Shown here piece after piece: positions 30,869 to 44,120 of a stretch of DNA of 64,000 nt. Each line of letters begins with the position of its first letter. Position 1 is the first letter of the stretch. The position numbers and the translations under genes are program-made. This DNA comes from Chloroflexi bacterium HGW-Chloroflexi-2 (GTDB taxonomy: Bacteria; Chloroflexota; Anaerolineae; Anaerolineales; Anaerolineaceae), in the NCBI GenBank assembly GCA_002840735.1, contig PHBY01000012.1, positions 55,012-119,011 of the forward strand, in the 5' to 3' direction. The notes beneath the pieces were generated by a model. That model was given only the letters and a program-made list of their open reading frames with translations, made no database searches and was not told where the DNA came from.

Positions 30869-31915
30869 TCAGGACGATATCCCCAGATTCTTCAAAACTG
30901 ACACCAAAACCAGAACTGCTTTGCCATAATCCGCAATAGAAATATGCTCATTGGGCGTATGATCCAGATTGGAGTCACCGGGGCCAAACGCCACTGCCGG
31001 GCATTGCCAGACTGGTGCAACCAGGTTAATATCGGAGGTACCGCTTTTATTAACAAATCCGGGCTTCCCTCCAGCCTGACGGATGGCACCTAGAAAAGCT
31101 CGCGTTAAGACGGAGTTTTTATCAGCTTGATACGCGGGGATTCCTGAGAATTGGTGGTTAACCTCAACCCCCTTTAACTCACCCAACCATTCTTCCAGCC
31201 AGACTTGTGGAGAGATAGAAATTGGCAATCGTGTCCCAACCTCAAGCCTTCCTTCCATCTCAAACCCATTCGATTCGCTTACCATGTTCAGAACTGTTGG
31301 AATGATTTGTTCGAACATCGTTTTTCCTTGATTGAATGCCTTCACGCGTTCTAACAGACCCTGCCAGACACCGAGTAATACATCATTGGCATTTCCACCC
31401 TGAGATGAATGCGTTATAGGTTGGCGACTGGTTAATACAGCTTGTTGTGATCCTTTATACCCCAATGTCACCCGGTTCCATTGACTGGGTTCACCAATAA
31501 TTGCGATTTCGGGTTGGTAGCGATTACATATATACCTGGCACCTTTTGAGTCACCTTCTTCATCCACAGCGCCAATCACCACGATCTGCCAGTCCGGATG
31601 AATGGAGACGGAGGCAACTGCATCAACAAACGCTGATAATGAGCCTTTGGCGTCCACGCTGCCCCTTCCATATAGATTGTCGCCTTCCAGTCGCACCGGT
31701 ATTTCGCCTTTTACTGTATCGATGTGCCCTAACAGGATGATTTGGTGGGGACCGGTTCCTTTGATACCAACTGCATTTCCAGCCTCATCCATAAAGCTCT
31801 GTTCAAATTGCAAATCAGCCATGCGTTGCACCAACCACTTAACTGCAGCTGCTTCACTGCCACTGGGACTATATTGATGCAGTAAGCCCAGGAGTGTTTC
31901 AGGAATATCAATCAT
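30869..31915 (-). CDS. lysK: [LysW]-lysine / [LysW]-ornithine hydrolase
   Basis: A 348-residue M20-type metallopeptidase. Metal-site motifs are LLGHIDTV, the Asp in [14 protein letters not shown], and the Glu pair in [11 protein letters not shown]. LysK frees the finished amino acid from the C-terminal Glu of LysW, giving lysine or ornithine. It is the last gene of the eight-gene arginine-side operon and starts four bases after lysJ. With no second copy in the window it is expected to serve both pathways, as known for Sulfolobus. Confidence 0.9.
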
Positions 31916-31918
31916 GAT

Positions 31919-33079
31919 TTACGCCACAGCCAATACTGAGTGCACGGCGGCAACCACCTGTTGTATTTGTTCACGTGTGATGACCAATGGTGGTAAGAAT
32001 CGTAGTACAGTCATACCTGCGGGCAAAGCCAACACCCCCAGATCAGTCAATTGCTTGAGATAGGGGGCAACCTTTTGTTTCAACTCCACCCCGATCATCA
32101 AACCCTGACCACGGACCTCACGTATGAGAGGTGATGGAATTGCCGATAATGCCTGCTGAAATTCATCACCCAAAATGGCAGCATTTTTTATCAAATTCTC
32201 CTGTTCAAGAATCTTCAATGTTTCGCGTGCCACCGCACAGGCTAAAGGATTTCCGCCAAATGTGGAGCCATGTATACCAGGTTGAAATTTAGCAACTTTT
32301 TCTCCAATTAAGATCGCTCCCATAGGCAATCCCCCCGCAATTGATTTTGCCAGGCATACAAAATCGGGTTGGATCGCATAATGCTGGATGGCAAACAATT
32401 TGCCGGTGCGTCCAAAACCAGTTTGCACTTCGTCAATCATCAGATAGGCACCTACCCGATCACATTGCTCGCGAACAGCAGTCAGATAGGCAGGATCAAT
32501 TGGATACACCCCACCTTCACCCTGTACTAATTCTAAAATGACGGCTGCTGTTTTTGTGGAAATCTGCTCGATATCATTGAAATCGTTGAAGGTAATATGG
32601 TGAAAATCAGGCACCAATGGTTCAAATGGTTCACGGTACTTCTTATTCCATGTTGCTGATAAGGCGCCGAATGTGCGGCCGTGAAAACCCCGTTTTGCTG
32701 CAATGATTTCAGTTCTTCCACTGGCAACACGAGCAAACTTAATGGCGCCTTCGATGGCTTCTGTTCCGGAATTGCAGAAAAACACTCTCTCTATGCCGGG
32801 TGGAGCTACTGCCATCAACTCCTGCATATAGAGTGCTCTTTGATCATTCGAAAACATCTCCGGGCAATTCAGCAGGATGGCTGCCTGGTCGGCCAATGCT
32901 TTTGTCCAGCGCGGATGGGCATGCCCAATATTGGCTGTCCCTTGCCCACCGACGCAATCGATGTAAACTTTTCCGTTGCTATCCGTCAGCGTTGCTCCAC
33001 TGCCCCGGATGATGGCTAGACCACGTTTGGCATATACACCACTGCTGTATTGTTCCTCCATAGAAACCCAATTCATCAT
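31919..33079 (-). CDS. lysJ: [LysW]-aminoadipate/glutamate semialdehyde aminotransferase
   Basis: A 386-residue class-III PLP aminotransferase. GTEAIEGAIKFARVASGR binds the cofactor phosphate, IDEVQTGFGRTGK contains the Asp contacting the PLP ring, and the Schiff-base Lys lies in CLAKSIAGGLPMG. It converts the carrier-bound semialdehyde to the amine. The ATG overlaps the lysZ stop (ATGA) and GGAGG precedes it. It plays the same part as ArgD. Confidence 0.92.
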   Translation of the reverse strand: MMNWVSMEEQYSSGVYAKRGLAIIRGSGATLTDSNGKVYIDCVGGQGTANIGHAHPRWTKALADQAAILLNCPEMFSNDQRALYMQELMAVAPPGIERVFFCNSGTEAIEGAIKFARVASGRTEIIAAKRGFHGRTFGALSATWNKKYREPFEPLVPDFHHITFNDFNDIEQISTKTAAVILELVQGEGGVYPIDPAYLTAVREQCDRVGAYLMIDEVQTGFGRTGKLFAIQHYAIQPDFVCLAKSIAGGLPMGAILIGEKVAKFQPGIHGSTFGGNPLACAVARETLKILEQENLIKNAAILGDEFQQALSAIPSPLIREVRGQGLMIGVELKQKVAPYLKQLTDLGVLALPAGMTVLRFLPPLVITREQIQQVVAAVHSVLAVA

Positions 33080-33894
33080 AAACCTCCAATCCAGGTCGCC
33101 TGGCCGCTTAACGCATGTGCAATTGGATTCTCTACCCGTCCATCGGCAATCGCGACCTGTTTTACACCCATTTCCAGCGCTTCTTTGGCACCCAGTACTT
33201 TCTTCTTCATTCTGCCTTGCGCAAATTGCATAGCTGCATCGATCTCAGACATCTTTATAGAGGGGATCCAGGTGCTTTCATCCGGGAAACTTCGGTATAA
33301 CCCTTTGACGGCAGTGAACAATAATAATTTGTCTGCCTGTAAAGCACCTGCCAGCATGGCGGCTGCGCGATCAGCATCCACATTCAATGCTTCGCCTTCA
33401 TGTGAAACCGCAATCGGGGCAACGACCGGTACCATTTGTTGCGATAACAGCCAATACAGGATACTTGCATTCACAAGTTCAATCTTGCCGCTGAAATCAT
33501 CACGTATAATTTTTCGTTTCCCGTTTTCAACACTTTGTAATGCTTTTTTGCGTTGAGCAACCATTAATTGACCATCCAATCCACTCAAACCAAATGCATT
33601 GACGCCAGCCTGTTGAAGCTTTGAAACCAGCAGGCTATTCACTTTTCCATTTACCGCCATGGTGAATATCTCCAGGGTCTTTGCATCCGTGTAGCGGGAG
33701 GTAAATCCTTCCGGACTGGTTAGAAATTTAGGGGGGTAACCCAATGCTTCTCCTAACAAATTGGCATCATGAGAGCCCCCATGGACAATTACGACAGGCT
33801 GACTCGATTTGACCAATGCCGCCACATCATTGCATAGAAAATCAAAGTTCACCCCATCTGTACCACCTATTTTGACTACCATTGTTTCTTTCAT
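33076..33894 (-). CDS. lysZ: [LysW]-aminoadipate/glutamate kinase
   Basis: A 272-residue amino-acid kinase of the ArgB/LysZ group. The N-terminal KIGGTDGVNFDFL and VIVHGGSHDANLLG segments bind ATP and substrate, and the C-terminal SEIDAAMQFAQGRMKKKVLGA matches the kinase family. It phosphorylates the side-chain carboxylate of LysW-bound aminoadipate or glutamate. The stop overlaps the lysJ start; lysY lies ten bases upstream. Confidence 0.9.
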   Translation of the reverse strand: MKETMVVKIGGTDGVNFDFLCNDVAALVKSSQPVVIVHGGSHDANLLGEALGYPPKFLTSPEGFTSRYTDAKTLEIFTMAVNGKVNSLLVSKLQQAGVNAFGLSGLDGQLMVAQRKKALQSVENGKRKIIRDDFSGKIELVNASILYWLLSQQMVPVVAPIAVSHEGEALNVDADRAAAMLAGALQADKLLLFTAVKGLYRSFPDESTWIPSIKMSEIDAAMQFAQGRMKKKVLGAKEALEMGVKQVAIADGRVENPIAHALSGQATWIGGL

Positions 33895-33904
33895 CTTCCC
33901 TCCA

Positions 33905-34939
33905 CTAAACGGGGTGTAAGCCAGGGAAATCTAGCCCAGCCATTTCATCCCAACCCATCATCAGATTCATACATTGCACCGCCGTCCCGGAGGCACCTTT
34001 CATCAGATTGTCAATCGCACAGATGGATACCAGGTGATTGTTTTCCTGATCATAAGCAAAACCAATATCTGCGTAATTGGATCCAGCCAGAACTTTCGGT
34101 TCGGGCACACGATAAACACCTCTTTTTTCGTTGACCAACCGCAGGAAAGGATTTTCTTGTGTAACTGCCCGGTAGGCTTTCCATAAATCTTTCATTACTA
34201 TCCCAGATTTGAGTTGAAGATGGGCGGTTGCCAGTGCTCCGCGCACCAGATCAACGGCTGTCATCGTCAGCCACAGCTTTTGTATTCCAAAAGCCTGGAT
34301 CACTTCAGCGGTATGACGGTGACCGAAGGCAGAAAAGGTGCGAATAACCCCACTGCGTTCAGGATGATGGGAGCCATCGTTGATAGAAGCGCCACCTTCT
34401 GATGAACCGACTTTAATTTCTATTGTCACCGGGGAGGAATCATCCATTATTCCAGCTTGCATGATCGGTAGTAACGCCAGAATACTCGCTGTAGCATTAC
34501 ATCCAACCCCACTGATATAATCTGCTTGCTGAATCGCTTCCCGATTGATTTCTGGCAGACCATAGACAAATCTGGACAACCATTGTGGTGATGCATGCGT
34601 TTGCCCATACCACTTTTCATACAGGACAGGGTCTCTCAAACGAAAATCCGCAGACAGATCGATGACTTTGGGTGCCAATCTGGCAAAATCGTCCATCTTT
34701 TTTTGAGCTTCCCCATGCGGAACAGCCAAGAAAAGCAAATCTACAGGTTCTAATTGTCCTGGATCACTGAACTTTAATGAGTTGACCTTGCGCAAATTTG
34801 GGTGGACCTGGTGAACATACTCCCCCAGATGAGATTGCGAAGTTACCTGATGAATTTCAACTTGCGGATGAAACGATAACAGGCGGAGCAATTCTCCGCC
34901 CGTATAACCAGAACCACCGAGGATGGATACTCGTATCAT
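33905..34939 (-). CDS. lysY: [LysW]-aminoadipyl/glutamyl phosphate reductase
   Basis: A 344-residue ArgC-type reductase. The nucleotide loop is SILGGSGYTGGELLRLL, the catalytic Cys is in ISGVGCNATASI, and VEIKVGSSEGGASINDGSHHPERSG belongs to the substrate side. It reduces the acyl phosphate to the semialdehyde with NADPH. The ATG overlaps the argX stop by four bases. Confidence 0.92.
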   Translation of the reverse strand: MIRVSILGGSGYTGGELLRLLSFHPQVEIHQVTSQSHLGEYVHQVHPNLRKVNSLKFSDPGQLEPVDLLFLAVPHGEAQKKMDDFARLAPKVIDLSADFRLRDPVLYEKWYGQTHASPQWLSRFVYGLPEINREAIQQADYISGVGCNATASILALLPIMQAGIMDDSSPVTIEIKVGSSEGGASINDGSHHPERSGVIRTFSAFGHRHTAEVIQAFGIQKLWLTMTAVDLVRGALATAHLQLKSGIVMKDLWKAYRAVTQENPFLRLVNEKRGVYRVPEPKVLAGSNYADIGFAYDQENNHLVSICAIDNLMKGASGTAVQCMNLMMGWDEMAGLDFPGLHPV

Positions 34940-35814
34940 AAAACCACCTCAATTTCACGTCTTCCAACTTTCAACAGATGATCCACCATTAAACCTGCTA
35001 CGTCTACACCGGTAATGGGCATCAGCGTATGAAATTCCATTGTATGGTTAATCTCATTGATCAGATAACCACGGTCAGGATGCTCGAGGATATCGATGGC
35101 CAATACCCCACCTCCTACTGCATGGGCTGCGTCGAGGCAAATTTTTTCCAATTCGGGATTGATCTTACAGATCTCCCCCTCACCTCCCCGGGCTGTATTG
35201 GTAATCCAATGTTCCGCTTTGCGATAAATGGCTGTGATGGCCTGATCTCCCATCACAAATACCCGTATATCACGCCCTGGTTTCTGGATGAATTCCTGAA
35301 TATAAAAAATGGAATGTTGTACGGAACCGAGCACCGACTTATGTTCCAACACTGCCTCAGCTGCATCGCGATCATTAATTTTTGCCAGCAGGCGTCCCCA
35401 CGAACCAACAGTTGGCTTAATCACGACCGGATAACCGATGGTCTCAATGGCTTCCAGTGCTGCTTCTGTTGAAAAAGCAACCAGATTGCGCGGTTGCGGT
35501 AATGAATATTTCGCCAGTGCAGCACTGGTTGCCAGTTTATCGCCACAGGCTTCGGCAACCCGGGCTGTGTTGACCGTCGGGATTCCCCAGGCATTCAAAA
35601 CCCGCAGAATATTCAGACCGCTTGAATAACTGATGCTGCGTTCGAGGATGGCTTCATATGTTCTCCATTCATCAGGATGATCCAGATCAAAAAAGACCTT
35701 GCGATCATCCAGGCGCTCGTAATCCACGCCACGTTGTTCCAGGGCGGCGAAGATCCACTTTTCTTCTACGCGAACCCGGGAGAATAAAACACCAATGCGC
35801 AGGCGTTTACTCAT
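34936..35814 (-). CDS. argX: LysW-glutamate ligase (ArgX), LysX/RimK family
   Basis: A 292-residue ATP-grasp ligase. Key segments are [38 protein letters not shown] and the C-terminal INEINHTMEFHTLMPITG. It joins the alpha-amino group of glutamate or aminoadipate to the C-terminal Glu of LysW. The start is MSKRLRIG right after lysW: a longer ORF exists upstream but its extra 49 residues run antiparallel-frame over lysW. It is assigned to arginine because it sits behind argG-argH and an Arg-rich leader. The substrate-loop motif WITNTARGG is the same as in the second paralogue, so sequence alone does not separate them. Confidence 0.85.
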   Translation of the reverse strand: MSKRLRIGVLFSRVRVEEKWIFAALEQRGVDYERLDDRKVFFDLDHPDEWRTYEAILERSISYSSGLNILRVLNAWGIPTVNTARVAEACGDKLATSAALAKYSLPQPRNLVAFSTEAALEAIETIGYPVVIKPTVGSWGRLLAKINDRDAAEAVLEHKSVLGSVQHSIFYIQEFIQKPGRDIRVFVMGDQAITAIYRKAEHWITNTARGGEGEICKINPELEKICLDAAHAVGGGVLAIDILEHPDRGYLINEINHTMEFHTLMPITGVDVAGLMVDHLLKVGRREIEVVL

Positions 35815-35815
35815 T

Positions 35816-35986
35816 TTATTCGCCCCAGTCTTCTTCTTCCATCGGGGCAAGTTCCACCGCGAGAGGATCCAGGGAGACAATTTCCAGGTCAACACCACAA
35901 TCCGGACAGACAATAATTTCATTTTTTTCCACACCTGCATCCAGGTTGATTTCAGCTTCACATTCTAAACAAATAACAGATTTCAT
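35816..35986 (-). CDS. lysW: LysW amino-group carrier protein, 56 aa
   Basis: A 56-residue protein starting [18 protein letters not shown]. Two Cys pairs (CLEC at 6-9 and CPDC at 28-31) form the zinc site. The acidic tail ends in EDWGE, the hallmark C-terminus whose terminal Glu carries the growing amino acid. GGAGG lies 8 bases before the ATG. It is too short for a usual ORF filter, but it is the central part of the pathway: argX, lysZ, lysY, lysJ and lysK all act on it. It is the only lysW in the window, so both amino acids are probably made on it. Confidence 0.95.
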
Positions 35987-36009
35987 TTTTTACCTCCAAT
36001 AAATTAAAT

Positions 36010-37383
36010 TTAACGAGCTTGCAAACACCTGCGCGCGGTGCTTATTTGTTCCACCACAGCCTGTGTGGCTGTACCTCCAACCACACAACGCGTGGCGATA
36101 CTCACCTCGGGTGAGAATACTTTTGAAAAATCTACTTCGACGCCTGGGATTAATTGTTGCCATTCTGTACGCTTCAATTGGTGAATACTCCTGCCTGATT
36201 CAAGCGACATTTTCACCGCCTTGCCTACCAGTTCATGGGCTTCCCGAAATGGGATACCGGCTTTCACTAACAAATCTGCCAGATCAGTTGCGAATACAGA
36301 AGGATCAATGGCAGCCCGGAGCTTTTCAGAGAAGATACTGAGCGTGGGAATCGCTTTTGATAACACCGGGAGTACTGCCATCAGAATATCATAAGCTTGA
36401 AAAACAGCCTGTTTATCTTCCTGCAAATCTTTATCGTATGTAGATGGCAACCCTTTCAAGGTAGACATTAACCCGGTCAATAACCCCAAGAGGTTGCCGG
36501 CTTTTCCACGGGTTAATTCAAACACATCCGGATTTTTCTTCTGCGGCATCAGGCTTGACCCGGTTGCAAAAGCATCATCCAGGGCAAAAAAACCAAACTC
36601 GGTAGTTGAAAATAACACCACCTGTTCCGACAATTTTGATAAATGGACACCACACATAGCTGCATCAAACAAGAACTGAGCGGCAAAATCGCGATCTGAA
36701 ACCGCATCCATACTGTTCTGGCTGACCCCAATAAAACCAAGCTGGTTGGCGAGTTCATGGCGGTCGATAGCAAAACTGGTCCCCGTTGCTGCCCCACTTC
36801 CCAGGGGCATGATCCCACATTCCTTGAAGGTGAAAGTTAGTCGCTCGATATCACGTTCCAAAGGCCAGAAAAATGATAACCACCAGTGACTCAACAAGAC
36901 TGGCTGAGCCCTTTGTAAATGAGTATAAGATGGCATGACCACATCGATATCCTGTTCTGCCCGTTTGACCAATTGGTCTTGAAATTGGCGGATTGCATGG
37001 ATCAATGTTGGTATTGCTTCGAGCAACCATAGACGAAAGTCTGTGGATACCTGGTCATTGCGGCTGCGACCGGTGTGTAATTTGCCGGCTGTTGGTCCAA
37101 TAATTTCATATAATCGGCGTTCTACAGCCGAGTGAATGTCCTCATCTGACGGATGAATTTGGAAGGTTAATTGGTCAAATTCATTCAGGATTTGAATCAA
37201 ACCGTCATGAATGTCCTGGTATTCAGAATCACTCAAAACGCCAATCTTATGCAATTGCTGCGCCCAGGCGATACTGCCAGTGACATCCTGTTTGGACAGA
37301 CGTTGATCAATATCGATGGAAGCATTCAACTTCCAGGCATCGGCATCGCTTGTTCCTTGAAAACGACCTCCCCAAAGACTCAT
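36010..37383 (-). CDS. argH: Argininosuccinate lyase
   Basis: A 457-residue protein of the fumarase/aspartase superfamily. The signature loop GSSLMPQKKNPD is present, with HTGRSRNDQVSTDFRLWL and SYTHLQRAQPVLLSHW supplying active-site residues. It splits argininosuccinate into arginine and fumarate. AGGAGG lies upstream of the ATG and the gene follows argG by ten bases. Confidence 0.96.
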   Translation of the reverse strand: MSLWGGRFQGTSDADAWKLNASIDIDQRLSKQDVTGSIAWAQQLHKIGVLSDSEYQDIHDGLIQILNEFDQLTFQIHPSDEDIHSAVERRLYEIIGPTAGKLHTGRSRNDQVSTDFRLWLLEAIPTLIHAIRQFQDQLVKRAEQDIDVVMPSYTHLQRAQPVLLSHWWLSFFWPLERDIERLTFTFKECGIMPLGSGAATGTSFAIDRHELANQLGFIGVSQNSMDAVSDRDFAAQFLFDAAMCGVHLSKLSEQVVLFSTTEFGFFALDDAFATGSSLMPQKKNPDVFELTRGKAGNLLGLLTGLMSTLKGLPSTYDKDLQEDKQAVFQAYDILMAVLPVLSKAIPTLSIFSEKLRAAIDPSVFATDLADLLVKAGIPFREAHELVGKAVKMSLESGRSIHQLKRTEWQQLIPGVEVDFSKVFSPEVSIATRCVVGGTATQAVVEQISTARRCLQAR

Positions 37384-37393
37384 CCTTTGCCTC

Positions 37394-38656
37394 CTAATCC
37401 CGTTTGAAACGCGAATAATCAGGTTTTGCCATTTTTACACCGGAAACAGGCAAACCATTCATTGCCCTGACCTTTAATGGAAGTCCGAACAAATGAATAA
37501 ATCCCTGGGCATCGGATTGATCGTAAACATCTTCCTGCCCAAATGTGGCAAAATCTTCACGATAAAGACTGAACTTGCTCTTTCTGCCTACAGGGATAAT
37601 GCTGCCTTTGTAAAGTTTAAGCTTTACCTCTCCTGTTACAGGCCCCTGGGTGGCATCTACAAAGGCTTCCAAAGACTCTCTTAATGGAGAGAACCACAAG
37701 CCGTCATAAACCAGCTCTGCGTATTTCAAAGCCACCAGATCTTTATATTGGATTGTTTGTCGATCCAAAACCAGCGACTCCAGTTCACGATGGGCTGCAT
37801 ACAAAATGGTGCCGCCAGGTGTTTCATAGACCCCATGGGATTTCATGCCCACCAGACGACCTTCCACCAGATCCACTCTACCTATGCCATGCGCCCCCCC
37901 CAATACATTTAATTTCATTAATAACTGAGCTGGGCTGTACTGTTCACCATTGATAGCTACCGGTGTGCCTGATTCGAACGTAATATCGACATATGCGGGG
38001 GATTCAGGTGCATTTTCCGGCGAGGCAGATAATAAAAACATGCTTTCCTGAGGTTCCTTCCAGGGATCCTCCAACAAACCGCCCTCATGGGAAAGATGCC
38101 ACAAATTACGATCACGGCTGTAAATTGACTTTTCATTGGCGGTTACCGGCACATTGTGTTCATTAGCATACTTGATCGCATCTTCTCGGGAGCGGATATC
38201 CCATTCTCTCCAGGGTGCAATTACCTGTAGGCGTGGGTCCAAGGCAGCAAAAGTTAATTCAAAACGCACCTGATCATTTCCCTTGCCGGTTGCTCCGTGG
38301 GATAAGGCATCCGCTCCGACTTCATGAGCCACATCAATCATATGTTTAGCAATTAATGGACGTGCCATGGAGGTGCCCAACAGGTATTTTCGTTCATAAA
38401 TGGCACCGGCTTTCATGGTTGGGAAGATATAGTCCTCAACAAACTCTTCCTTGAGATCGCGAATGATCAATTGACTGGCGCCGGATGCCAGCGCTTTCTC
38501 TTCCAGGCCATCCAATTCCTCCGCCTGACCGACATCTGCACAAAAGCAGACCACTTCGCAACCATAATTCTCCTTCAACCAGGGGACAATCACGGAAGTA
38601 TCCAGCCCCCCGGAATAGGCTAACACAACTTTTTTTACTTCTTTTTTATTCATCAT
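37394..38656 (-). CDS. argG: Argininosuccinate synthase
   Basis: A 420-residue enzyme. The P-loop-type [15 protein letters not shown] binds ATP, with [21 protein letters not shown] and [19 protein letters not shown] as further family blocks. It joins citrulline and aspartate. It is the first structural gene behind the Arg leader and its terminator hairpin. GAGG lies 5 bases before the first of two adjacent ATGs. No argF or carbamoyl-phosphate synthase gene is in the window. Confidence 0.96.
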
Positions 38657-38681: not shown

Positions 38682-38715
38682 AAATAAAAAAGCTCTCCGG
38701 GAAGGAGAGCTTTTT
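38682..38715 (-). terminator. Attenuator terminator of the argG operon
   Basis: Minus-strand stem AAAAAGCTCTCC/GGAGAGCTTTTT (38704-38715 with 38687-38698), five-base loop, then TTTTTTATTTC. It lies between the Arg-rich leader ORF and argG. The loop and 3' arm (CTTCCCGGAGAG, 38693-38704) can instead pair with CTCTCCgcaGGGAAG inside the leader ORF (38768-38782), with a three-base bulge, which would open the terminator. Confidence 0.85.
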
Positions 38716-38740: not shown

Positions 38741-38833
38741 TTAATCCATTAAAGCACTAATGCCCGTCTTCCCTGCGGAGAGGATGCGGTTACGACGAAC
38801 ACGACGACGAAGAATAGCACTTGTTGGGATCAT
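38741..38833 (-). CDS. Arg-rich leader peptide of the argG operon, 30 aa
   Basis: A 30-codon ORF with central sequence AILRRRVRRNRIL: six Arg within eight residues, five of them CGT. It lies 85 bases before argG, followed by a terminator hairpin. The ATG is only ten bases after the -10 box, so the message is nearly leaderless; no Shine-Dalgarno site is needed or seen. This is the arrangement of a transcription attenuator in which a ribosome short of charged Arg-tRNA changes the RNA fold. The peptide itself is not expected to have another role. Confidence 0.85.
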   Translation of the reverse strand: MIPTSAILRRRVRRNRILSAGKTGISALMD

Positions 38834-38843
38834 AATAGGCAAT

Positions 38844-38872
38844 AGTGTACTGGAGGTACGGAGGAATGTCAA
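38844..38872 (-). promoter_or_regulatory. Promoter of the argG operon
   Basis: On the minus strand TTGACA, a 17-base spacer and TACACT. The -10 ends ten bases before the leader-peptide ATG, giving a 5' end within a few bases of that ATG. Confidence 0.8.
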
Positions 38873-38945: not shown

Positions 38946-39959
38946 TCATAAATTGGCAAGAATGCGATTAAGAATCACCTGCGTACCCGGCATATGTACG
39001 CTGGGATTGATTCCAAGGTCGCCGAATTCAATCAAGCTTTGATGGACTGCTGCTTCAATCTGATTGGCAGCCTCCTGTTGTTGCCAGATAAAACGAACGA
39101 GTAAAGCAGCACTCAAAATCGCTGCAATCGGATTCGCTATTCCTTTTCCGGCAATATCAGGTGCTGACCCGTGTACAGGTTCAGCCAGACCAATTCCCTC
39201 ACCCAGGTTGAGCGAAGGTGCCATTCCCAACCCACCACACCAATATGCAGCAGCATCTGAGAGGATATCACCAAATAAATTTGTTGTTACCAGTACATCA
39301 TATTTTTGTGGATCACTTAGCATCCGAAATGCAGCTACATCCACCAATATCTCTTCTACATCGATACAATATCCCTGCTGCTCATAGGAAGAAACAACTT
39401 CACGAACGGTATCACGAAACAGTCCATCGGTTAGAGGTAAAACATTTGCTTTATGAATAATCGATAATTTCTTTCTATTCAGTTGCTGCATGATGCGCAT
39501 ACTTTGTTTGGCAATTCGAAAAGAAGCCTGTCTGGTAATCACCCGGGTAGCGGTCGCCCGTCCATCCTGAATGGTCTCCAACCCGGAATATAATCCCTCA
39601 CTATTCTCACGCACCAGGATCATATCAATATCTGCGCGGGGGGAAACAACAGGTAAACTGCGTACTGGACGAAGATTGGCAAATAAATCCAGTTCCTGGC
39701 GCAATGTCAGAATGGCTGAGCGATATCCCTGTACTTGATGGGAAGGGGAAGAAACTGCACCAAACAATGCAGCCCCACAATCTCTTATGGTGTCCATGGT
39801 CTGTGGTAATACCGATACGCCGTATTTTTGAAAACAATTCCAGCCTGCTTCGGCATAAACTACCTCCAGATCCGGTATGATCTTTTCAAGTACCTGAACA
39901 GCAGCAGGAATGACTTCCAACCCAATTCCATCACCTGGGATTATGCATAATTTTGGCAT
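38946..39959 (-). CDS. Homoisocitrate dehydrogenase (isopropylmalate dehydrogenase family)
   Basis: A 337-residue protein starting MPKLCIIPGDGIGLEVIPAA. LVRENSEGLYSG, HKANVLPLTDGLF and VHGSAPDIAGKGIANPIAAILSAALL are the family's cofactor and metal-site blocks. It oxidises and decarboxylates homoisocitrate to 2-oxoadipate. Assigned to lysine rather than leucine from its place at the end of the homocitrate operon. GAGGA precedes this ATG; an upstream frame extension of 22 residues is outside the family. It may act on isocitrate or isopropylmalate too. Confidence 0.85.
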   Translation of the reverse strand: MPKLCIIPGDGIGLEVIPAAVQVLEKIIPDLEVVYAEAGWNCFQKYGVSVLPQTMDTIRDCGAALFGAVSSPSHQVQGYRSAILTLRQELDLFANLRPVRSLPVVSPRADIDMILVRENSEGLYSGLETIQDGRATATRVITRQASFRIAKQSMRIMQQLNRKKLSIIHKANVLPLTDGLFRDTVREVVSSYEQQGYCIDVEEILVDVAAFRMLSDPQKYDVLVTTNLFGDILSDAAAYWCGGLGMAPSLNLGEGIGLAEPVHGSAPDIAGKGIANPIAAILSAALLVRFIWQQQEAANQIEAAVHQSLIEFGDLGINPSVHMPGTQVILNRILANL

Positions 39960-39975
39960 TGATAGTCCTCTATTT

Positions 39976-40467
39976 TTATTCGCCTGGTAATCGATCATTT
40001 GTTTGAATATAAGCCACCAGGCCACCAGCGCTCACGATCTCTCGGGCAAATGGTGATATTTCCGGAAGGCGATGTCTGTGATTTCCAACTTCCAGGCGGT
40101 TTCCATCCAGATCAAGCGTACACAAATCATGATCAGATAATTCATCAACTACCAGTGGTGCTTCAATTAAGATCAAACCAAGGTTAATGGCATTGCGATA
40201 GAAAATTCTGGCAAAGCTTTTCGCTATGATTGCTCCAATTTGCCTACGTTTTAATGCCAAAACGGCATATTCACGCGAAGAACCGCACCCAAAATTTTCA
40301 CCCGCAACAATAATATCGCCAGGTTCTGCCAGTTTGTTAAATTCAGGATGTGCTTCGATAAAAGCTGCTTTACCTACATCCTCATTCGGGCGCATATAAG
40401 GCGCATAGCGCCCGGGAACAATCTGATCTGTATCGATATCGTCTCCAAATTTCCAAATTTGAACCAT
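39976..40467 (-). CDS. lysU: Homoaconitase small subunit
   Basis: A 163-residue LeuD/LysU-type swivel-domain protein starting MVQIWKFGDDIDTDQIVPGRY. GENFGCGSSREYAVLALKRRQI is the substrate-binding block, and SFARIFYRNAINLGLILIEAP follows. With LysT it isomerises homocitrate to homoisocitrate. The start has GGAGA and GGA just upstream; an ORF extending 64 residues further overlaps the lysT end and was rejected. Confidence 0.9.
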   Translation of the reverse strand: MVQIWKFGDDIDTDQIVPGRYAPYMRPNEDVGKAAFIEAHPEFNKLAEPGDIIVAGENFGCGSSREYAVLALKRRQIGAIIAKSFARIFYRNAINLGLILIEAPLVVDELSDHDLCTLDLDGNRLEVGNHRHRLPEISPFAREIVSAGGLVAYIQTNDRLPGE

Positions 40468-40480
40468 GATTTCCTGTCTC

Positions 40481-41713
40481 CTAAATATACCTTGGGTCTG
40501 TAATGGCCCCTCGAATGGCGGAAGCAGCTGCCACAGCTGGTGAAACCAGATAAATCTGTGATGCCGGATCTCCCATTCGTCCCTTGAAATTCCGGTTTCC
40601 GGTGGATAAACAAACATCATTTTTTCCCAGCGTACCCTGGTGTCTACCCATACAAGCACCGCACCCAGGGGTGCTTAGAACAGCGCCTGCAGCGATCAAG
40701 GTCGAGAGAGTATCATCCGCCATGGCTCGTAATAATTCATGGCTGGATGCCGGTGTGATAATAAAACGAACTTGATCAGATATTTGGTGACCCTTTATGA
40801 TAAGTGCAGCCGCGCGCAAATCTTCATAGCGTCCGTTGGTGCAGGTGCCAAGAAAAATTTGGTCAAACTTCTTGCCTGCTACAACCGAAATATCTACCAC
40901 ATGATCCACGGCATGTGGTATTGCAATTTGTGGCTCGAGCGTTTCAAGGTCGATTTCCAGCGTACGAAAATATGAGGCATCAGGATCAACGAACAACCAT
41001 TCTGGAACGGTGAAACGTCTGCTTATCTCACCAGATGGTGGAACAATGCCTGCTTTAGCGCCTAATTCAACCGCCATACTGCATAAAGTTTGACGTCCAT
41101 ATAATGGTAGCCAATCTAATCCATGATATTCAATTGTTTGATAGGTAGCTCCAGATATCGAAAGTTCGCGCCCGATTTTTAATGCGAGATCTTTTGGACC
41201 AACGCCAGATTGAAATCTTCCTCGAACCAGAATTCGTAATGTCTCCGGGACACGCAACCATGTTTTTCCTGTTGCCCAGATAGCAGCCACGTCTGTGGAT
41301 CCCATCCCTGATCCAAATGCTCCTACAGCACCATAACTGGTGGAATGAGAATCCGCGCCTAGCACGATAAATCCAGGTTGTGCAATGCCCTCTTCGACTA
41401 ACACCTGATGACAGATTCCTCTGCCTACTTCAAATAAACGAATATTGTTTCTCTGGGCGAAGGCACGGACTTTATTTTGATTTTCAGCTGTTCCCACTGT
41501 TGATGCAGGAGCTACGTGATCAAATGAAAACACAAGTTGATTGGGAATTTGGACAGTATTTCTACCAAAATCTTGTTGTAATATGTCAATTATTCCGGGG
41601 GTAAGCGAATCGTGGCTCATGACCACATCCGGTTGAACAACCACAATTTCACCTGCCTGAACCACTCGTCCAAGCGAGTTTGAAAAGATTTTTTCGGTTA
41701 ATGTCTGACCCAT
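40481..41713 (-). CDS. lysT: Homoaconitase large subunit
   Basis: A 410-residue aconitase-family protein. Fe-S cluster cysteines lie in FLGTCTNGRYEDLRAAA and STPGCGACMGRHQG; VLGADSHSTSYGAVGAFGSGMGSTDVA is the substrate loop. It dehydrates and rehydrates homocitrate together with LysU. GGAG lies nine bases before the ATG, inside the end of the homocitrate synthase gene. Confidence 0.92.
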   Translation of the reverse strand: MGQTLTEKIFSNSLGRVVQAGEIVVVQPDVVMSHDSLTPGIIDILQQDFGRNTVQIPNQLVFSFDHVAPASTVGTAENQNKVRAFAQRNNIRLFEVGRGICHQVLVEEGIAQPGFIVLGADSHSTSYGAVGAFGSGMGSTDVAAIWATGKTWLRVPETLRILVRGRFQSGVGPKDLALKIGRELSISGATYQTIEYHGLDWLPLYGRQTLCSMAVELGAKAGIVPPSGEISRRFTVPEWLFVDPDASYFRTLEIDLETLEPQIAIPHAVDHVVDISVVAGKKFDQIFLGTCTNGRYEDLRAAALIIKGHQISDQVRFIITPASSHELLRAMADDTLSTLIAAGAVLSTPGCGACMGRHQGTLGKNDVCLSTGNRNFKGRMGDPASQIYLVSPAVAAASAIRGAITDPRYI

Positions 41714-41716
41714 CGA

Positions 41717-42892
41717 TTAATCTCCTGCCATACTTACTGGTTGATTCGTTTTTGTACCCTCAATCTGTTGGTGGTATTCCCGATATAAAATTGTATCGAC
41801 ATCATCCAACGTCAATGGACGTTCATCCGAATTTCGTTTGACCTCTTTGGTGATATGTTTGATGTGGCTATCACTTAAGTCCAACCCCAATTGTTCAGCG
41901 CGGTACTTGATGGCGTTCCAGCCGGTTAAACGATGGGCAATGTTGATATAGCGGGTCAAACCAAAATCCTCAGGAGATAAAACTTCATAGGTAGATGGGT
42001 TGTTTAAAATCGCTTTGGCATGGATGCCGGCTTTGTGGGTAAATGCCGAGAAACCAGTGATGTAATTATTGAAGGGAATATCGACCTGTACCAATTCAGC
42101 AATGCGTTGATCCAACTCAACCAAAAGCAGCAAGTTGTATTTAGCTACCAGGACCGGATTAATCGCATAAAGACGCGCTATTAAACCACCCAACGGTGTA
42201 ATTCCATTGCGTTCACCGATGCCTAAAACACTGGTATCAACATGCGTGGCACCTGCCTCCAATGCTGCATAAGCGTTGGCTATGGCACAGCCGGTATCAT
42301 TGTGACCATGAAATTCAATATCCGCTTTTACCCTTTTGCGGAGTTCAGATACCAGGTTATAAACCTGCATTGGCGTTCCTATTCCCACGGTATCTGCAAT
42401 CCCAACCCGGTTGATGCCAATGGCATCCACTGCTTCGTAAACCGCGTATAAATCTTGGGGGTCGCTGCGTAAGCTATCTTCAGTTGAAAAGCGCATTTCC
42501 ACATTTTGTGATTTCAAATATCCAAAGACTTCCTGTGCCAGTTCGATAATCTCGGGCACACTTTTGCCATGGCTGAAATTACGTAATTGCGAGGAGGTTC
42601 CGATGACCACATCTACGCCATCCACGCCAGTATCAACTGCCCGTTTGACATCATTCAGCGTACAGCGTGTGTGGGTCACAATTTTTGCGTTCAGTCCCAG
42701 TTTGGCGATGGCGACGCAATCCCGTTCACTCTGTGGAGATGCCTGGGGGGTGGTTAACTCCAGATACTCAACTCCGAATTCATCTAATAAACGTGCAATT
42801 TCAATTTTTTGGTCCTGTGTAAAAAACGTGTTGACGAATTGTTCCCCTTCTCTTAATGTTGATTCAATGATGCTAAAATTTTCTAAACTCAT
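41717..42892 (-). CDS. Homocitrate synthase
   Basis: A 391-residue DRE-TIM metallolyase. [14 protein letters not shown] holds the catalytic Arg and metal Asp/Glu region, and [21 protein letters not shown] the metal-binding histidines; [13 protein letters not shown] follows. It condenses 2-oxoglutarate with acetyl-CoA, the first committed step of the aminoadipate route. AGGAG precedes the ATG. It follows lysX in the operon under the tandem Lys leader peptides. Confidence 0.92.
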
Positions 42893-42909: not shown

Positions 42910-43785
42910 TTAGTTTCTGGCCTGATTGTTAAAAGATTGGTTTGTCACCATTGTGATGATGGCATCCACCATTATGCCGGGAATATCTACACCGGTTGGC
43001 TCTACACTATTTTTGAATTCCATGGTGTGATTCACTTCATTGACCCATAATTTTCCGGAAAGGTCCTGCATCAAATCAACCGCCACAATATCGCCACCAA
43101 CCGCTTGTGCTGCTGCAACAGATAAGGAATCAATCTCAGGTGTGATTGGACAATTCGCTGCGATACCACCCCGAGCAGTATTGGTGATCCAATGATCAGA
43201 ACTGCGGGTAATTCCACAAATAGTCTGATTTCTAACCACAAATGTGCGAATATCACGGTCTCCTTTTTCAATATATTCCTGAATGTAGAAAATTGAATGC
43301 TGAACAGAGCCAAGAGCGGCCTTGTGTTCCAGAACTGCCTCGGCGGCTTCCCGGCAGGTGATCAATGCCAGCAAACGTCCCCAGGAACCAATGGTTGGTT
43401 TCAGCACCACGGGATAGCCCATATCTTCGATTGTCTCCAACGCTGCCTCTGGAGATAATGCCAGACGAACTCGTGGGGTTGGGATCTGATTGCGGATTAA
43501 AGCCAGGGTGGTATTTTTCTTGTCACCACACATTCGCAATGTGTGGGCAGAGTTTACACAGGGAATATTCCAGGCTTCAAAGATTTCAAGTACAGTCTGA
43601 GCTTGTGAATGACTGATACAGCGATCTAGCAACACATCATATTGCAGCCAACGATCCATATTGTGCAGATCAAAGACAACTTCACGCACGTCGATCAAAT
43701 CAAAATCCACATTCCGCAGCCTAAAACGATCCATTAACATTTTTTCTTCTTTGCGAATCCTTGAAAATAAAATTCCTGCTTTCAT
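42910..43785 (-). CDS. lysX: LysW-aminoadipate ligase (LysX)
   Basis: A 291-residue ATP-grasp ligase paralogous to the argX gene ([53 protein letters not shown]). It attaches aminoadipate to LysW. Lysine assignment rests on its place before the homocitrate genes and behind Lys-rich leader ORFs. The start [15 protein letters not shown] has GGAAAGGAAAC upstream; a 21-residue upstream extension would be read through the terminator hairpin and was rejected. Confidence 0.88.
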
Positions 43786-43797
43786 CGTTTCCTTTCC

Positions 43798-43835
43798 AAA
43801 ATAAAAGAGCCTGCCATTCCGGCAAGCTCTTTTTT
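43798..43835 (-). terminator. Second attenuator terminator before lysX
   Basis: Minus-strand stem GAGCTTGCC/GGCAGGCTC (one internal mismatch), loop GGAAT, extended by flanking A-T pairs and followed by TTTTATTTT. It lies between leader peptide 2 and lysX. An upstream segment, TCTGGTGAG (43871-43879), can pair with its 5' arm (43818-43826) over nine positions including three G-U pairs. Confidence 0.8.
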
Positions 43836-43863
43836 CTGATAACGCCAATAAGGGTCAAAAAAA

Positions 43864-43944
43864 TTAAAAACTCACCAGATTCCGATCCGGTTTCTGCTTC
43901 TTGACCATATTCTTTGTCGTATTAAAAATGATTTTTTTGTTCAT
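43864..43944 (-). CDS. Lys-rich leader peptide 2 of the lysX operon, 26 aa
   Basis: Begins MNKKIIFNTTKNMVKKQK and ends NLVSF. Six Lys in 26 residues, with KKQK late in the peptide. AAAGG is five bases before this ATG; a second ATG immediately upstream would add one Met. It sits between the two terminator hairpins, so it is translated only if the first is passed. Confidence 0.8.
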   Translation of the reverse strand: MNKKIIFNTTKNMVKKQKPDRNLVSF

Positions 43945-43954
43945 CATTACCTTT

Positions 43955-43984
43955 AAAATAAAAACCTCGCCTTGTCTGGCGAGG
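43955..43984 (-). terminator. First attenuator terminator before lysX
   Basis: Minus-strand stem CCTCGCC/GGCGAGG with loop AGACAA, then TTTTTATTTT: a textbook terminator lying 400 bases from any usual gene end. Its loop and part of its 5' arm (CCAGACAA, 43972-43979) are exactly complementary to TTGTCTGG at 44014-44021, right after leader peptide 1, forming an antiterminator. Confidence 0.85.
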
Positions 43985-44024
43985 GCAGATGCAATTCATA
44001 ATCGTTCAAACAACCAGACAATAT

Positions 44025-44084
44025 CTAAAATTTGTTGGTTTTTGCCTTCTTGGTTAAGGAAATGGAATTGAATTGATTATTCAT
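44025..44084 (-). CDS. Lys-rich leader peptide 1 of the lysX operon, 19 aa
   Basis: Reads MNNQFNSISLTKKAKTNKF. Four Lys lie in its last eight residues. The ATG follows the -10 box by eight bases, so the transcript is leaderless or has one or two bases before it. The antiterminator segment (44014-44021) begins three bases after its stop, so a ribosome reaching the stop would mask it and one stalled at the Lys codons would not. Confidence 0.8.
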   Translation of the reverse strand: MNNQFNSISLTKKAKTNKF

Positions 44085-44092
44085 ATTGGATG

Positions 44093-44120
44093 ATTATAAA
44101 AGCGATTTTATATTTGTCAA
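44093..44120 (-). promoter_or_regulatory. Promoter of the lysX operon
   Basis: On the minus strand perfect TTGACA, a 16-base spacer and perfect TATAAT. The -10 ends eight bases before the ATG of leader peptide 1. Confidence 0.85.

Follow-up and report, generated by a model that had tools for sequence, protein, structure and literature searches.

How transcription of the lysine operon headed by lysX is adjusted to the supply of lysine in Chloroflexi bacterium HGW-Chloroflexi-2, a member of the Anaerolineaceae, is the question raised by the DNA in front of it, where two short Lys-rich open reading frames (ORFs), each followed by a terminator-like hairpin, stand one behind the other. The operon lies on the minus strand of the window, by which we mean the whole 64,000-nucleotide stretch of DNA that was analysed, and reads lysX-hcs-hacA-hacB-hicdh, with lysX at 42910..43785 (TIGR02144, 312.7 bits, above cut-off) and the other four genes of the lysine branch, named by family search, at 38946..42892. 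LysX and hcs (homocitrate synthase) exceeded equivalog cut-offs and hacA and hacB (homoaconitase subunits) subfamily cut-offs, and hicdh (homoisocitrate-dehydrogenase-like) scored below all cut-offs shown. Further along the minus strand (30869..38656) follow the arginine and shared genes argG, argH, lysW, argX, argC, argB, argD and argE, of which argG and argH were named by family search and lysW, argC, argB, argD and argE are what we take these reading frames to be on inspection by eye. The gene behind lysW (34936-35814, minus strand) encodes a second LysX-like paralogue, about 52% identical to LysX, which is probably ArgX.

A preliminary description of the region upstream of lysX had listed a consensus promoter, a 19-codon ORF with four Lys codons, a first terminator, a 26-codon ORF with six Lys codons and a second terminator, and all of these were found on the minus strand. 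The promoter (TTGACA-16-TATAAT, 44093..44120) matches the consensus at 12 of 12 positions, and a close match to it stands upstream of leader 1 in all 8 of the 8 genomes with tandem leaders. The gap from the -10 box to the ATG of leader 1 is short (8 nt in the window, 13 nt in G011 and 7-9 nt in the other seven tandem genomes), and translation of this ORF may therefore be leaderless or nearly so. Leader 1 (44025..44084) encodes MNNQFNSISLTKKAKTNKF in 19 codons, 4 of them for Lys, and ends in a stop codon; in the free fold, AACCAACAA and TTGTCTGGTT form its 1:2 (protector) pairing with one bulge (44012..44040). Segment 2, the antiterminator strand (TTGTCTGGT, 44013..44021), finds its partner in the loop and arm of terminator 1 (43980-43972), and here the 8-bp exact complement pointed out earlier was confirmed, as TTGTCTGG (44021-44014) is exactly complementary to CCAGACAA (43979-43972). 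Terminator 1 itself (43955..43984) consists of a 7-bp stem (43984-43978/43971-43965, CCTCGCC/GGCGAGG) and a U tract (TTTTT).

Between terminator 1 and the second ORF lies a ribosome-binding-like AAAGG. Leader 2 (43864..43944, with an alternative ATG one codon upstream) encodes MNKKIIFNTTKNMVKKQKPDRNLVSF in 26 codons, 6 of them for Lys, before its stop codon, and an alignment of 16 sequences supports a 1:2 (protector) hairpin in it, ACCGGAT/ATCTGGT (43874..43891). Its segment 2 (TCTGGTGAGTTTTT, 43866..43879) forms 14 pairs, G-U pairs included, with AAGAGCTTGCCGGA (43831-43818), that is, with the 5' arm and loop of terminator 2, and it is this pairing, rather than the nine-position one with three G-U pairs first suggested, that constitutes the predicted antiterminator. 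Terminator 2 (43798..43833) has a 13-bp stem (43833-43821/43815-43803) and a U tract, and AAAGGA lies between it and lysX.

Four features by which an attenuator is recognized from sequence, namely a short ORF between promoter and gene, a run of Lys codons, an intrinsic terminator and, past the codon run, an antiterminator that excludes it, were thus found, and we consider it highly probable that the two leaders in series before lysX bring about ribosome-mediated transcription attenuation in response to the level of charged Lys-tRNA. When lysine is ample, the ribosome would complete the leader and cover segment 2, the 3:4 terminator would form and transcription would stop; when Lys-tRNA is scarce, the ribosome would be held up at the Lys codons, short of segment 2, which would then pair with segment 3 and let the polymerase read on. 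An untranslated leader would fold into 1:2 and 3:4 and likewise stop. With two such units, the leaks past each would multiply when conditions are rich, and shut-off would be tighter and induction steeper than with one.

We folded the RNA no further than the terminator loop, placing the edge of the ribosome past the Lys codon in its A-site (by 13 nt, an assumed distance), and obtained the antiterminator in both leaders, at -11.2 to -11.6 kcal/mol in leader 1 and -23.0 kcal/mol in leader 2. Once the ribosome was placed at the stop codon, the antiterminator was blocked and weaker pairings took its place, of -5.6 kcal/mol in leader 1, where a 7-bp pairing of TTGTTTG still reaches the terminator loop, and of -6.6 kcal/mol in leader 2. 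In the finished transcript, the minimum-energy fold contained the terminator for each of the ribosome positions folded, and the proposed switch must therefore be kinetic, decided during transcription as in classical attenuators.

The leader region is visibly AT-rich and Lys codons are A-rich, and a sceptic might see here no more than ordinary terminators accompanied by chance ORFs, in which Lys is frequent since AAA and AAG are frequent in AT-rich DNA. Dinucleotide-preserving shuffles of the 308-nt leader region argue against this: two hairpin-linked Lys-rich ORFs (ATG start, at least 3 Lys per 10 codons) arose in 0 of 3000 shuffles and one in 2 of 3000, against two in the real sequence. Moreover, the Lys runs persist in other genera, mostly as AAG, the argG genes of the same group are preceded by Arg-rich and not Lys-rich ORFs, and the pairings change together, as detailed below, so that a chance origin appears very improbable. 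The antiterminators were also compared with shuffles, and in 22 of the 25 leaders scored, both window leaders included (3 of 500 for each), no more than 25 of 500 shuffles gave an energy as good; leader 1 of G020 (208/500), leader 1 of G011 (48/500) and leader 2 of G020 (42/500) lay above this threshold, and G050, present in the alignment of 16 leaders, is absent from the score. The 1:2 pairing taken singly was weak, as only 7 of 17 leader-2 and hcs leaders stayed within the limit of 25 in 500, and in leader 1 it was no better than shuffled flanks (118-315 of 500 shuffles equalled it in five same-genus genomes).

Homologous operons that lacked such ORFs, or whose ORFs were poor in Lys, would speak against attenuation, as the preliminary description pointed out; what we found is that Lys-coding ORFs recur in relatives. 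A LysX match (E <=0.001) was present in 86 of 151 genomes, the weakest matches being other ATP-grasp proteins, and 40 stretches around strong matches were examined. Two Lys leaders were found in all five same-genus genomes that have the lysX-hcs operon (G000, G001, G002, G005 and G006, the source genome included); the remaining three genomes of the genus comprise one without a LysX match (G003) and two with only a paralogue adjoining argC (G004 and G007). Two Lys leaders also stand upstream of lysX in G011 and G020 and upstream of lysW-lysX in the metagenome-assembled genome (MAG) 'Chloroflexi bacterium isolate bin.33' (L104), which brings the tandem genomes to eight, seven besides the source genome, with loci L100-L103, which appear to correspond to stretches of G001, G006, G005 and G002, counted once. 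The weakest case among them is G020, whose leader 1 was picked out by eye and has an antiterminator no better than shuffles. A single ORF of the leader-2 type (KEKKPDxxLVSC and similar) stands upstream of hcs in eight genomes from other genera.

A covariance model of the leader matched 19 of the 151 genomes, at one site each. Fifteen of these came from its training set, whose sixteenth sequence, L104, lies outside the 151 genomes, and the other four were G008, G036, G037 and G059, of which G037 and G059 had already been seen in the ORF survey; three of the four matches lie directly upstream of hcs, and that in G008 follows argE near a contig end. In G000, leader 2 was the sole match below 0.001 (the second place had an E-value of 1.07) and leader 1 was unmatched. 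Among 80 GTDB loci, the 700 nt upstream held a hairpin-linked Lys- or Arg-rich ORF in 19 and two or more in 7, and the tandem arrangement is therefore not general outside this group. Lys-rich leaders were also seen at L110, L149, L154 and L155. Upstream of lysW-lysX in L124, a Myxococcota MAG, there are two serial hairpin-linked Lys-rich ORFs, the second with a 9-nt antiterminator complement, a possible tandem outside Chloroflexota.

The helices were assessed in a MAFFT alignment of 16 leader-2 and hcs leaders, made without structural guidance and omitting G037 and G059. Paired cells made up 92.0% in helix 1:2, where 4 pairs had changes on both sides, 91.5% in helix 2:3, with 3 such pairs, and 95.8% in helix 3:4, with 8 such pairs and 30 cells changed on both sides; sliding the partner by 1-3 columns lowered pairing to at most 48%, 52% and 58%, respectively. 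Column shuffles equalled the covariation score in 0 of 500 cases for 1:2, 20 of 500 for 2:3 and 0 of 500 for 3:4, in a kind of test that related sequences inflate. Over five measures, the counts for 2:3 were 15, 19, 5, 476 and 20 of 500, the 476 belonging to further pair types, and this test is limited because segment 2 varies little; for 3:4 they were 38 of 500 for pairs changed on both sides, 249 of 500 for further pair types and 0 for the other three. Segments 1, 2 and 3 change jointly, reading CCGGAT, TCTGG and CCGGA in the window and CCAATT, ATTGG and CCAAA in G002. For leader 1, an alignment of seven sequences (seven of the eight tandem genomes, that of G020 being omitted) kept all terminator pairs while three positions varied, and mostly kept the antiterminator core. 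Across relatives, then, the Lys codons, the two hairpins and the two complements are found again and change together, the comparison that the preliminary description had proposed, and this supports its reading of the region as a pair of putative attenuators.

The same comparison bears on whether the leaders work chiefly in trans, either as small RNAs or through the peptides that they encode, so that attenuation would come second. There is a precedent for this in peTrpL and rnTrpL of Sinorhizobium meliloti (PMC7298713); the peptides studied here diverge widely between genomes except in the Lys run and the pairing segments, and we give a primary role in trans hardly any credence. As for the codon content of the leaders, the ORF lists of the window, the relatives and the GTDB loci were pre-selected for Lys or Arg richness and therefore hold no evidence of enrichment; this comes from a composition-blind test, in which the longest ATG ORF of 10-45 codons ending 10-60 nt upstream of a hairpin was taken. 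Before lysX or hcs, 22 of 27 such ORFs had at least three Lys per ten codons and 2 of 27 at least three Arg; before argG, the Arg level was reached in 17 of 18 and the Lys level in 0 of 18; and before other genes of the same stretches the figures were 3 of 19 for Lys and 4 of 19 for Arg, all entries being from related genomes and hence non-independent. It is very likely that these leaders act by ribosome-mediated transcription attenuation and that their codons suit the branch of the pathway which they control.

In the window, the Arg leader comprises a promoter (TTGACA-17-TACACT, 38844..38872), an ORF encoding MIPTSAILRRRVRRNRILSAGKTGISALMD up to its stop codon (38741..38833), with the Arg-coding stretch MIPTSAILRRRVRRNR, and a terminator upstream of argG (38683..38714, hairpin 38714-38688), all on the minus strand. 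Its antiterminator pairing was matched by 14 of 500 shuffles, and among the Arg leaders of the group, of which 15 of 18 entered this test, 12 of 15 stayed at or below 25 of 500 (the exceptions being L031 with 55, L035 with 51 and L049 with 33). The unit before argG would respond to arginine as the lysX units would to lysine. This leader, with a promoter and terminator of its own (38872-38683, minus strand), directly follows the lysine operon; as it stands between that operon and argG, read-through from the lysine operon would need to get past it too.

A gap of at least 150 nt to the previous labelled gene preceded lysW at 13 loci, from which L033 was excluded because its lysW directly follows an unlabelled reading frame and is not the first gene. 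All 12 of the 12 lysW-first operons have a hairpin-linked ORF upstream, and 11 of the 12 ORFs contain both Lys and Arg, as counted by eye and without a control (L038, L039, L040, L042-L045, L048, L056, L059 and L063, with stretches such as LKKRSSK, SKRAR and LKRVR; for L048 and L063 the second listed ORF was taken, 10 nt from its -10). The leader of the twelfth, L069, has Arg and no Lys. The mixed leaders before lysW look as if they sense both end products. Taking the three kinds of leader together, we think it rather probable that the LysW-dependent network of the Anaerolineaceae is run as a whole by a leader codon code, in which Lys codons serve the lysine genes (twice over, in series, in one group), Arg codons argG and both kinds the shared lysW operon.

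This correspondence between leader codons and downstream genes also weighs against an undescribed lysine- or tRNA-binding RNA, a riboswitch or T-box to which the ORFs would be incidental. Such elements do occur in the family: lysine riboswitches were found in nine of the 151 relatives, from two genera (G021, G023, G052, G054, G069, G077, G079, G085 and G086), and T-boxes before trpE in three of the six trpE loci scanned against Rfam (L089, L090 and L091). Within the window no Rfam family reached its gathering score, RF00168 and RF00230 (T-box) included, and a search of the 8 genomes of the genus, source genome included, under strict filters gave no lysine riboswitch (RF00168), in agreement with the absence stated at the outset by the preliminary description. 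As the conserved core consists of the Lys run of the ORF and three short helices, we regard a binding RNA of this kind as very unlikely. Weak Rfam matches in the leader (E <=10) were taken as chance; the best was SpF03_sRNA, with 31 bits vs a cut-off of 50, and Phe_leader and Thr_leader fell far below their cut-offs. In the 600 nt upstream of 12 ilvB-family and 8 trpE-family loci of relatives, hairpins were present at 1 of 12 and 6 of 8, respectively, and no hairpin-linked runs of Ile/Val/Leu or Trp codons were found. Regulation in this lineage seems to rely on T-boxes in the case of Trp and on leader peptides in the cases of Lys and Arg.

The attenuators of the trp, his, leu and thr operons of enterobacteria combine a leader ORF containing regulatory codons with 1:2, 2:3 and 3:4 alternatives and a U-tract terminator. 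The window units share the leader ORF, the predicted 2:3 and 3:4 alternatives, in leader 2 with a 1:2 hairpin supported by alignment, and the U-tract terminator, and the lysX leaders very probably work like this classical leader-peptide class and belong to it; the enterobacterial attenuators serve other amino acids and are single, whereas here there are two units, the first probably leaderless. A closer parallel is Thermus thermophilus, whose LysW-type alpha-aminoadipate lysine cluster reportedly carries a Lys leader-peptide attenuator (Tsubouchi et al. 2005, J Biol Chem). The preliminary description, which knew of no such attenuator on a LysW-type operon, was therefore too strong in its claim of novelty, and what does appear new is the arrangement in series. 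The two systems, from different phyla, reportedly have in common leader Lys codons, LysW-type lysine genes and transcription attenuation; Thermus is said to have one leader, where here there are two in series, besides those with Arg codons before argG and, in relatives, those of mixed Lys/Arg content before lysW. The L-box riboswitch (RF00168) also places lysine genes under lysine-responsive control and senses free lysine through an aptamer; the source genome has no RF00168 match.

Leaderless leader-peptide attenuators have been described in Streptomyces lividans and for Sinorhizobium trpL (PMC8079986 and PMC7298713), and leader 1 would resemble these in that its ORF probably starts at or near the 5' end of the transcript. 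Their regulatory codons are those for Leu, Trp, Ile, Thr, Met or Ala, and the words lysine and arginine are absent from PMC8079986. Naville and Gautheret (2010) stated that, to their knowledge, leader peptides had until then been shown only in Proteobacteria and Actinobacteria, to which they added Firmicutes, and their main text contains none of the words lysine, arginine, Thermus or Chloroflex (PMC2965389). In the literature searched, whose coverage is without most subscription journals, we found no description of two serial amino-acid leader attenuators on one operon. To our knowledge, what is new is the placing of two leaders in series, the existence of Arg and of mixed Lys/Arg counterparts, and the spread of such leaders in the family.

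These leaders would place classical attenuation, for two basic amino acids, in a phylum for which no report of it was found in the literature searched. Natural tandem attenuators offer material for testing multiplicative control, and the match between leader codons and pathway branch could help to assign LysX and ArgX paralogues. If the codon-code reading is true, one RNA mechanism would sort a bifunctional pathway according to which amino acid is scarce.
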